Below are positions 1 through 4,165 of a stretch of 6,735 nt of DNA, in pieces. Numbering within the stretch: position 1 is the stretch's first letter; each line of letters begins with the position of its first letter. The stretch is from Nitrospinae bacterium RIFCSPLOWO2_12_FULL_45_22 (GTDB lineage: Bacteria; 2-12-FULL-45-22), in NCBI GenBank assembly GCA_001803565.1, contig MHDQ01000037.1, forward strand, positions 1 through 6,735. The letters are read 5' to 3'. Position numbers and translations under genes: made by a program. The notes under the pieces are model-generated. The model did no database searches, was not told the origin of the DNA, and saw only the letters and a program-made list of their open reading frames with translations.

Positions 1-2129
1 TCTAATACTGCCCCAATAGCTACTGATTTCAAGACCTTTGGGGAAACCCGCGAGAGACTTAAGAGGTCTTCGGTAATATTAGTGATCCTATCCACTTCTT
101 TAATTACTAAGGGCAAAAATACCTCCCTAAAACCTTGGTCCTGGTACTTATCCGGCAACACCTGGCAAAAGGTCTTTATGGAAACCAGAGGATTCCTTAT
201 CTCATGGGCTACCCTGGCCGCCATAGATCCCACGGTGGCTAATTTTTCCCGCTGCCTAACCTCTTCTTCTAAGCGACTGATTTCTGTAATATCAGAAAAA
301 ACCAATAAACCGCCTGAAATCTCTCCTTCTCTATCTTTAATGCAGGAGGAAGATATACTCAGTATCTTCTTCTCTTTCATAGCGGTTAAATTAAAGGGGA
401 GAGTCTTATTATAATATCTCTGCCCGCGCAAAGTTTGTCGAAACATATTAGCTATTTTGTCGCCCAGACGATCAATCTTTTGGCCCAAAATAGCCTGGGG
501 CTCCAGGTCCAGGATTTCTCCCGCCCTGGAGTTAAAAGTGACCACAATGCCCTCGGGATTGGCAGCAATCACCCCACTATCCATCTGCTGTAAGATCATC
601 TCGTAATTATTCCGCATAACCAACACTTCATTATATAGCTTGGCATTCTCCAGGGCAAGTCCCGCTTCATTCCTTATGGCCTCCAACAAGTTAATATCAT
701 CATCGGAATAGATACCACCCTTCAACTTACTACCCAGGCTAATGATCCCTTTCAGCTCACCCCGGTATATCAAGGGAATTAACAATTTACTGGAAAGTCT
801 ATGGAAATCCTGGGCCATGGCATGGCTCTCCTTTTCCGGCAAAAACCTGGATAATTCGTCCAAGACAAGAATCTCTTGCCTCTCTCTTAATCGTTTGCAG
901 GCAGGGCTGTCTATCGGAATATTTTTCCCTCCCGAAAATAATTCTTTCACCCTCAGCCTTTCCCCCTCCCCTGGAAGGAGGGGAGAAGGGGTAATTTTCA
1001 TTGCCCTTTGTGGCCCCTGGCTCATGAATGTTTCCTGTGAAGAGTCTTTTTCCGGGGGGTAAGTCGTTACGGACCGGTATTCTTCCTGTTTATCGTCTAA
1101 AAGTAGAAGGGAGACCTTATCAATCCTCATTATCTGCCCTATTCTTTCTACAATAAAATTTTCCAGCCGGGGTAGATCTAAGATAGTAGTAAGTTGGTGG
1201 CTGAAATCCTTCAGGGCTATTTGATAGCCGAAGATATCTTTAAAGAATATTCTCTTAACCCAAGTATCTAAATTTTGCTGAAAGACCCCTATTAGGATAG
1301 TTAAGATTATAGCCGAGAAAAGAATGGAAAGAGGCTTAGGGAGGTGAAGAATATTGTAAAGGAAATAATCCAGGGCCAACAATAAGCTGAAAATTCCCAG
1401 GACTGCTACTATGAGCGATAAAGTCCGGCTGACAACCACCTCTATCTCTAATAACCTATGCCTAATAATGGCATAGGTTATTAGAGAGGCGATAAATATA
1501 CTTGATAAATTACCAAGATAAAAATATTTACCACTATGAGTTATGAAAGGCAAATACCCGGCAAGGAATCCACCAATTGGAAAAATAATTCCAAAGGCAA
1601 AAACCAAATATTTGATCTGTAATTGTTCTAATCCTCTTTTTACCTTTTTGTACCTTTGGACCAGTTTAATGATGCCAAAACCCTGGATAACTGATATGTA
1701 AAAAACATAGATCTTATAACCGGGGGCAAGGACGGTGTCGTTGCCCCATGGTCTTAAAACAATGTCTTTCATGACCAAAGGGGTAAAACCAAGGGCTGAA
1801 AAAACTAATCCAATGAGAAAAACAGGTAATGTCTTGATAAGAATAGGTTTAGATCTATCTTCTTGGCAAAATATGATAATAAAAGCAATACTGACGGCTC
1901 CAGAAAAACCACCCAAGAAAAAGGCCATCCTGCCCGCTAAGATAAGCAACTCCCTACTTGAAAGAACCTCAAAGAGAAAGGCAGATAAGCTCCACAAAGA
2001 AAGCGAAAAGGCGTAAGCGGCGAAAGAGCGATTAATATTGCTTTGTGGTCTCTTAGCTAAGACGTAAAACCCCAGAATAATATTAATAATAGCCGATAAT
2101 ATTAAAGAAGACTCTTTGAAGTATAACAA
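1..2129 (-). CDS. Membrane sensor histidine kinase (7TM-type sensor, GAF, PAS, HisKA), 3' end outside window
   Basis: This is the sensor half of a two-component system; the frame is open through the left edge, giving 709 residues. Residues 8-225 hold about seven hydrophobic segments, resembling the HisKA_7TM sensor region, and two more lie near 237-257 and 267-283. A GAF domain spans about 305-495 and ends in the helix EAIRNEAGLALENAKLYNEV. A PAS domain spans about 508-615 (MDSGVIAANPEGIVVTFN, ending FSDITE). HisKA begins near 620, with the phosphoacceptor His642 in the H-box AHEIRNPL. The HATPase domain must lie beyond position 1. I chose the TTG start because an in-frame TAA lies 18 nt upstream and AAGGGGG precedes it by 7 nt; no ATG occurs near the start of the first membrane helix. 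Residues 380-394 are encoded by a palindromic DNA repeat inserted in the GAF domain. The architecture recalls PrsK-like kinases, but the signal and partner regulator are unknown. Confidence 0.93.
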   Translation of the reverse strand, partial: MLYFKESSLILSAIINIILGFYVLAKRPQSNINRSFAAYAFSLSLWSLSAFLFEVLSSRELLILAGRMAFFLGGFSGAVSIAFIIIFCQEDRSKPILIKTLPVFLIGLVFSALGFTPLVMKDIVLRPWGNDTVLAPGYKIYVFYISVIQGFGIIKLVQRYKKVKRGLEQLQIKYLVFAFGIIFPIGGFLAGYLPFITHSGKYFYLGNLSSIFIASLITYAIIRHRLLEIEVVVSRTLSLIVAVLGIFSLLLALDYFLYNILHLPKPLSILFSAIILTILIGVFQQNLDTWVKRIFFKDIFGYQIALKDFSHQLTTILDLPRLENFIVERIGQIMRIDKVSLLLLDDKQEEYRSVTTYPPEKDSSQETFMSQGPQRAMKITPSPLLPGEGERLRVKELFSGGKNIPIDSPACKRLRERQEILVLDELSRFLPEKESHAMAQDFHRLSSKLLIPLIYRGELKGIISLGSKLKGGIYSDDDINLLEAIRNEAGLALENAKLYNEVLVMRNNYEMILQQMDSGVIAANPEGIVVTFNSRAGEILDLEPQAILGQKIDRLGDKIANMFRQTLRGQRYYNKTLPFNLTAMKEKKILSISSSCIKDREGEISGGLLVFSDITEISRLEEEVRQREKLATVGSMAARVAHEIRNPLVSIKTFCQVLPDKYQDQGFREVFLPLVIKEVDRITNITEDLLSLSRVSPKVLKSVAIGAVL
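948..993 (+). repeat. GC-rich palindromic repeat inside the kinase coding sequence
   Basis: CTCCCC (966-971) pairs with GGGGAG (980-985), and CCCC (962-965) pairs with GGGG (988-991) across a 2-nt bulge. The left shoulder reads CACCCTCAGCCTTTCCC. The element closely resembles the intergenic repeat at 4128-4165 (ACCCTCACCCTTACCC shoulder, then a C/T-rich and G/A-rich hairpin). Both belong to the type of dispersed CCCTCACCCT...CCTCTCC palindrome found between genes in many environmental bacteria. Here it is read in frame on the minus strand as TPSPLLPGEGERLRV, residues 380-394 of the kinase, with no stop. Confidence 0.75.
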
Positions 2130-2310: not shown

Positions 2311-2786
2311 TTAAAGTCATAAACTAAAGAACCACTATAAGGATATGCTCTACAGTCCTCCAACTGCCCTCTTCTTACAGGATTTCCCAGGATATAAAGG
2401 GCTATTGACATTTTATCCTCTTCCTTTCTAAGAACATGATCGTAATAGCTCAAATGCTAAATGGGTCCTTGATACTTTTGTTTGAACCAGTAACCACTCT
2501 TTTGCTTAAAAAGGTTTACAAACCTCGCAAGATCAGATTTAGTATTTCTACCACTGAGTAAAAGGTGGAGATGATCTGGCATAAAACAATATGCCTCAAT
2601 GTCAAACCCTTCTTTTTCTGAGACTTCCTTTGTGAAGTCTAAAAGGATGTTTACAATCTCAGGGTTCGTAAAGAGGGGTCTTCTGTCTTTAGTTAAAAGG
2701 GTGAGGAAATAGGTATAGGTGCCACGATAATTAAAGGAACTAAGTCGAGGTCTTTTAGGCAACGGCATGTTTTTGTCTAATCCCAT
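2298..2786 (-). pseudogene. REP-associated tyrosine transposase (RAYT, Y1_Tnp family), broken by an in-frame amber codon
   Basis: RAYTs are HUH-type single-strand nucleases related to the IS200/IS605 transposases and are tied to REP palindromes. The frame encodes 162 positions. They include the N-terminal strand FNYRGTYTYFLTLLTKDRRPLF (split here as residues 18-39), the metal-binding H72-x-H74 in FMPDHLHLLL, and the helix LARFVNLFKQKSGYWF. After QGPI, codon 110 is TAG (2457-2459). The same frame then continues with SYYDHVLRKEEDK, the probable catalytic Tyr131 in ALYILGNPVRRG, and AYPYSGS. Family members usually have Trp near this point (GPLWQ-S-Y), so TGG to TAG is the likely change. The truncated product would lack the catalytic Tyr. 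I chose the ATG at 2784-2786 because AAGGGA lies 6 nt upstream; ATG 2766-2768 is also possible. REP-like units flank the gene on both sides, as expected for a RAYT. Confidence 0.9.
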
Positions 2787-2803
2787 TGTGTGTCCCTTGG
2801 TGC

Positions 2804-2857
2804 AGGTCAAGGCTTTAGCCTTGATGAAAGAGATCAACCCTGAAGGGTTGAGTTACG
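2804..2857 (-). repeat. REP-like two-hairpin unit, right copy
   Basis: This is an inverted copy of 2258-2310. It contains the perfect 16-nt palindrome CAAGGCTTTAGCCTTG (2808-2823) and the hairpin TCAACCC-TGAA-GGGTTGA (2834-2840 with 2845-2851), followed by GTTACG. The outer parts (CGTAACTCAACCCTT and GCCTTGACCT, read on the minus strand) match the left copy exactly, while the spacer between the hairpins diverges. It fills most of the gap between the synthase stop codon and the transposase start. Confidence 0.78.
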
Positions 2858-4127: not shown

Positions 4128-4165
4128 CCCTCACCCTTACCCTCTCCTCTTGGGGGAGAGGGTAA
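4128..4165 (+). repeat. Intergenic palindromic repeat between the MoaD-like and synthase genes
   Basis: TTACCCTCTCC (4137-4147) and GGAGAGGGTAA (4155-4165) form a perfect 11-bp stem with a 7-nt loop, preceded by ACCCTCACCC. The element occupies about half of the 75 bp between the MoaD-like stop and the synthase start. It lacks a following T run on the minus strand, so it is a poor rho-independent terminator. A related copy lies in the kinase gene at 948-993, in the same orientation. Confidence 0.8.

Follow-up and report, generated by a model that had tools for sequence, protein, structure and literature searches.

Does the palindromic repeat lying inside a histidine kinase gene of this DNA represent an element that has been taken into a protein, and what would it have done to that protein? 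The window, which is the whole contig analysed here (6735 bases), encodes a sensor kinase that the contig end cuts before its ATPase domain. An earlier note on these letters had described a GC-rich hairpin repeat at 948-993, captured in frame within the kinase GAF domain, probably in a surface loop. The repeat is indeed present in the gene, and the frame through it is open. With a probability of roughly 85%, we read the kinase segment as a small palindromic element, non-autonomous, a copy of which entered a GAF surface loop in sense orientation. The hairpin module at its 5′ end and its 3′ end are both conserved, and the palindromic cargo between them is exchangeable. With one stop-free sense frame in the 5′ module and a cargo of suitable length, such an insertion would have extended the protein and not truncated it. 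The product would be a GAF domain of otherwise normal fold with a flexible loop added, and the loop is most likely tolerated without being of use.

An insertion in the GAF domain

The kinase segment is an insertion. Approximately 36 residues (E366-G401) are absent from the aligned kinase homologues of other genomes. The best three of these (30-32% identity over the GAF region) run from the strand ..EYRSVTTYPPE straight into ..IPIDSPACKRL with nothing between, and the site is a loop of variable length among the homologues. The earlier proposal of an in-frame addition within a GAF loop is supported by the homologues that lack the segment and by the further copies described below, while the size it gave (15 residues) was too small. 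As the segment is absent from the homologues, none shares it at the protein level while lacking similarity to the repeat in its DNA. In an AlphaFold2 prediction (four sequences), the GAF core reached pLDDT values of 80-91 and residues 362-388 and 395-402 fell below 50, which suggests that the GAF fold is intact and the insert is a disordered loop.

A separate feature was observed elsewhere in the same gene. At window 1445-1487, the two 18-bp arms of an inverted repeat match perfectly around a loop of 7 nt (fold of -29 kcal/mol) and encode the conserved LITYAIIRHRLLEIE where the 7TM region ends. The repeat is far beyond chance and perhaps reflects a template-switch event.

Anatomy of the kinase copy

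Coordinates are collected in Table 1. On the kinase strand, the 5′ module GAAACATTCATGAGCCAGGGGCCACAAAGGGCAATGAAAAT is followed by the palindrome and then by ATTTTCGGGAGG, whose ATTTTC pairs with GAAAAT of the 5′ module. The feature first noted at 948-993 belongs to the repeat without being the whole of it; it is the central cargo of a 107-nt unit whose 5′ module and 3′ end had been missed. What had been taken for a single hairpin of the CCC type is a two-hairpin unit, the CCC type being one of many exchangeable cargoes.

Table 1. Features of the window that bear on the kinase insert
Feature	Position	Strand	Remark
Sensor histidine kinase gene, 7TM-GAF-PAS-HisKA	3..2129	-	ends at contig edge
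Whole inserted unit, 107 nt, kinase residues 366-401 (E366-G401)	928..1034	-	homologues lack about 36 aa
5′ module GAAACATTCATGAGCCAGGGGCCACAAAGGGCAATGAAAAT, hairpin at 1011-1024	994..1034	-	model R1 match, E 1.2e-6, 47.6 bits; alignment A1
Cargo palindrome, CCC-type repeat, read as TPSPLLPGEGERLRVKEL	940..993	-	contains the feature first noted at 948-993
3′ end ATTTTCGGGAGG	928..939	-	fits consensus 3′ end
Left flank GGAAA	1031..1035	-	imperfect direct repeat of GGGAAA at 924-929
Bare CCC-type palindrome between ThiS-like and ketoacyl-synthase genes	4128..4165	+	without 5′ module

The stem of the kinase copy is one T short of the 5′ module consensus. As a result, this copy starts as ETFMSQG, the usual frame of the family, before shifting to a second frame, PQRAMKITPSPLLPGEGERLRVKELFSGG, in phase with the kinase sequence downstream. 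If translated, as we infer, the insert would yield peptides such as ITPSPLLPGEGER.

Kinship between the kinase cargo and the repeat at 4128-4165 had also been proposed. The two scored 31 in a local alignment, where 200 shuffles averaged 12.3 and reached at most 22, and the second repeat proved to be a bare palindrome of the cargo type. Hairpin stability was dropped as evidence: folding of 948-993 was unremarkable (z about -0.8 against shuffles of the same composition). The 4128-4165 palindrome reached z -3.28 on the plus strand. The case for the kinase insert rests on the repeat family rather than on folding energy.

A repeat family with constant ends

The kinase segment belongs to a family in which a 5′ module (GAAACnnTCATG-hairpin-CACAAAGGRnnATGAAAAT) is followed by a palindromic cargo and a 3′ end (ATTTTCRGR). 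The aligned consensus reads GAAACnnT-CATGnnnn-loop-nnnnCA-CAAAGGRnn-ATGAAAAT, a variable stretch (median 98 nt), and ATTTTCRGR-nnAA, with the complementary GAAAAT and ATTTTC enclosing the variable stretch. In an initial search of the window's genome, other places matched the sequence next to the hairpin but did not match the hairpin.

Covariation supports the 5′ stem. In a sample partly chosen by a hairpin filter, 98.1% of cells were paired and 15 were double-change cells, a result reached in 0 of 500 shuffles. Compensating pairs included TGAGCC/GGCTCA, TGAACT/AGTTCA, TGTCCC/GGGACA, and TGCCCC/GGGGCA, and covariance-model matches in the window's genome added TGCCTC/GAGGCA and TGGCCT/AGGCCA. 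The 3′ end occurred within 300 nt downstream of the 5′ module in 77 of 115 units; the corresponding counts were 2 when that stretch was read on its reverse strand and 3 upstream.

The window element and eight element-bearing loci matched no Rfam 15 family above its gathering score, and a search of the open-access literature did not find the family; an earlier description is possible, and the family is apparently undescribed so far. The core superficially resembles a hammerhead. A self-cleaving ribozyme was rejected, with GAAA missing at the required place and Rfam negative.

Exchangeable cargo

Cargo varied widely even within one genome. In the Nitrospirota genome G043, 46 inspected units had 27 different cargo starts, and the cargoes represented several unrelated palindrome types (CCCTCACCC.., CCCCCTTTAGAAAAGGGGG.., CAAATATCAAAAATC.., GTCATTCCCG.., and others). 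The CCC-type kinase cargo aligned best with a G043 stretch (locus L234) that likewise runs into ..GAGGGTGAACGAAGGGGATTTTCAGATGAA, the ATTTTC end. Among 72 distinct cargoes, phase was close to random (31/24/17), which made family-wide selection for an open phase unconvincing. The family as a whole thus does not appear tuned for coding, and the in-gene copies are survivors. Judged only by how far away the next 3′ end lies, no unit was recognised as an autonomous version that holds a gene in place of the cargo.

Three near-identical units in the window's genome (L210, L211, and L213, on contigs C275, C177, and C205) are nested in a different palindromic repeat, GACAGGATTTACC...GGTAAATCCTGTTAATCCTGTC. 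These are repeats within repeats.

Copy number and distribution

We scanned genome contigs for the pattern CATGAGCC-nn-GGCTCACAAAGG. At least 112 contig stretches matched it exactly, mostly from Nitrospirota and also from Deltaproteobacteria, Nitrospinota, and Brocadia. Copy counts, all of them lower bounds that rest on a model of the 5′ module only, were 14 in the window's genome (E<=0.1), in agreement with the expectation of further copies there, and at least 123 in G043 (150 candidates scored), 35 in G044, 32 in G045, 13 in G042, and 11 in G041. The same model found no copy in G001, the only relative of the same order, and none in the three genomes that supplied the best-matching kinase homologues. 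Under strict filters, at least one copy was present in 19 of 148 sampled genomes of Nitrospirota. The family is common in groundwater Nitrospirota.

The window's genome is a metagenome bin. Its contig C208 (L002), together with L084, shows 99.6% identity to Nitrospirae bacterium RBG_16_43_11 (G041), a different genome. This identity marks C208 as probably foreign to the bin, so that the assignment of the window contig to an organism is tentative.

Recurrent in-frame capture

In-gene capture is recurrent in the family. In-frame landings were found in at least nine genes, including those for DNA-repair and tRNA-modification enzymes. In the window's genome these comprise the kinase, an ORF in which upstream sequence is joined to an ArsA-type ATPase, an AddA-like nuclease (with UvrD_C and PD-(D/E)XK matches), and a 1002-aa ORF with no Pfam match, and one unit forms the C-terminal extension of another histidine kinase. 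G043 carries units in UvrA, a heptosyltransferase, and a class I/II aminotransferase, and locus L139 carries one in a PMT-like protein. MnmG contains two tandem units in G042 and a unit at a different position in G044.

Empty sites were supplied by the UvrA orthologues of G042, G044, and G045 (82-87% identity, with orthologues at 85-86% among them), which are contiguous through the site and lack the 43-aa insert of G043. A local search for empty sites at the nucleotide level returned only tandem or paralogous units. In a separate observation, MnmG of G060 (L283) has an apparent bare CCC-type repeat in frame (SAPHPNPSPLRGSEGRGELSHDV), without the 5′ module, where G042 has its two-hairpin units; the shared site is possibly an insertion hot spot.

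Every in-gene unit is read in the sense direction. A uniform test requiring 60 open codons on both sides gave 7 of 7 in sense, two of them tandem units of one gene. Frames that stay open from end to end are antisense in most cases (58 of 93), and 7 of 7 would arise by chance with a probability of about 0.001 if strand followed open frames. On the sense strand, the 5′ module has TGA in two of three frames, leaving one free of stops; this explains the frame of the in-gene units, not their strand.

Alternative readings of the kinase insert

The insertion might instead have inactivated the kinase, with the open frame a recent relic of a pseudogene. The one-base decay of the 5′ hairpin would fit this, and the contig ends ahead of the ATPase domain, which leaves room for a gene that is no longer intact. 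However, the frame is open over 709 aa, insert included, with recognisable TM, GAF, PAS, and HisKA domains, and open-frame inserts also occur in genes expected to be important (MnmG and UvrA). We regard loss of function as unlikely.

A narrower account, in which a simple CCC-type palindrome was captured alone and the neighbouring sequence is ordinary kinase, draws on the existence of bare CCC-type repeats, at 4128-4165 and apparently in frame in the G060 MnmG. It is contradicted by the bases beside the cargo, which match the 5′ module (E 1.2e-6), by the ATTTTC end that follows it, and by a homologue gap of about 36 residues where 15 would be expected. We consider this account very improbable. 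Just as little probability attaches to domestication, in which the insert would modulate GAF signalling. Its location in a ligand-sensing domain and the divergence of this copy from the family consensus speak for such a role, but the insert is predicted to be disordered, insertions occur in unrelated proteins, and the kinase insert is conserved in none of its homologues.

An assembly or binning artefact that wrongly joined the repeat into the gene is scarcely credible: the bin is metagenomic, short repeats provoke misassembly, and at least one of its contigs looks foreign, but the frame is open on either side, the site is a length-variable loop of the homologues, and the pattern recurs in several independent genomes. 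Tolerance of a sense insertion in a surface loop, presumably neutral, is the simplest reading of the kinase insert.

Flanks and possible modes of spread

We infer that the element is mobile and that an enzyme mobilises it. The G043 UvrA unit has GATGAA at both ends, and the kinase copy lies between GGAAA and GGGAAA. Across 31 isolated units, NNAA on the two sides agreed better than in permuted pairs (p about 0.001), a value obtained after one realignment of the flanks (the first alignment showed nothing) and with subfamilies not controlled. This agreement weakly suggests a short target duplication. The two consensus ends (5′ GAAACnnTCATG and 3′ ATTTTCRGRTGAA) are not complementary and form no terminal inverted repeats, which makes an ordinary DDE MITE unlikely.

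REP elements are served by Y1 transposases. An IS200-like (Y1) enzyme was rejected as the mobiliser here, as Y1 counts do not track copy number: no Y1 match was found in G041 or G042, with 11-13 copies, and one weak match in G043, where copies number at least 123. By tblastn, the Y1 protein of the window was absent from all other element-bearing loci. Its gene (window 2457-2837) is flanked by palindromes at 2159-2306 and 2804-2857 (CTCAACCCTTTAGGGTTGA and GGCTTTAGCC), an arrangement that resembles a RAYT accompanied by REP-like repeats of its own.

Relation to known palindromic repeats

Protein-coding palindromic elements are known mainly from Rickettsia, and REPs inside genes are on record. 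Likeness to the Rickettsia palindromic elements (RPE) had been pointed out, and the comparison is apt, as in-frame units of this family occur in several unrelated protein genes. RPE are small palindromic repeats of about 100-150 bp between and inside genes (Ogata 2000, 2002, as cited in PMC10969869), found in frame in unrelated conserved proteins as flexible, probably tolerated peptides. Unlike the single long palindrome of RPE, the present element has two hairpins, the first constant in structure and the second exchangeable, and its hosts are Nitrospirota, Deltaproteobacteria, Nitrospinota, and Brocadia. Membership in an RPE family is unlikely because phylum and architecture differ. To our knowledge the two share no consensus; they are set apart here by architecture and host group.

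REP, BIME, and REPIN repeats with RAYT transposases are high-copy short hairpins, sometimes tandem or inside genes (PMC3733652, PMC2817692, PMC3116915). REPs lie in repair and replication genes (recB, dnaE) and tRNA-related genes (PMC3733652), resembling the units in UvrA, AddA-like, and MnmG proteins. In contrast to GTAG/CGTC REPs, the stem foot has neither GTAG nor CGTC (CATG...CACAAAGG in 36 aligned copies), units are mostly 100-200 nt with variable cargo, and Y1 transposase numbers are out of step with copy number. MITEs, ERIC, and RU are likewise non-autonomous and dispersed, with occasional in-frame fusions (PMC10969869, PMC2759123), although the present element differs from a MITE bearing terminal inverted repeats in that its ends are not inverted repeats of each other.

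More tentatively, and at somewhat less than even odds, the family may be a frame-and-cargo mobile element in which the constant 5′ hairpin and 3′ end carry, exchange, or capture unrelated palindromic repeats. Many of the anonymous palindromic repeats of environmental bacteria would then share it as a vehicle, and it would be one that lengthens essential proteins time and again. Exchangeable hairpins between constant ends offer a handle on the spread of short palindromic repeats where no transposase is obvious. One genome has more than 100 copies, close relatives have empty sites, and UvrA and MnmG carry insertions, which makes it testable whether such captures are merely tolerated or become new protein sequence.
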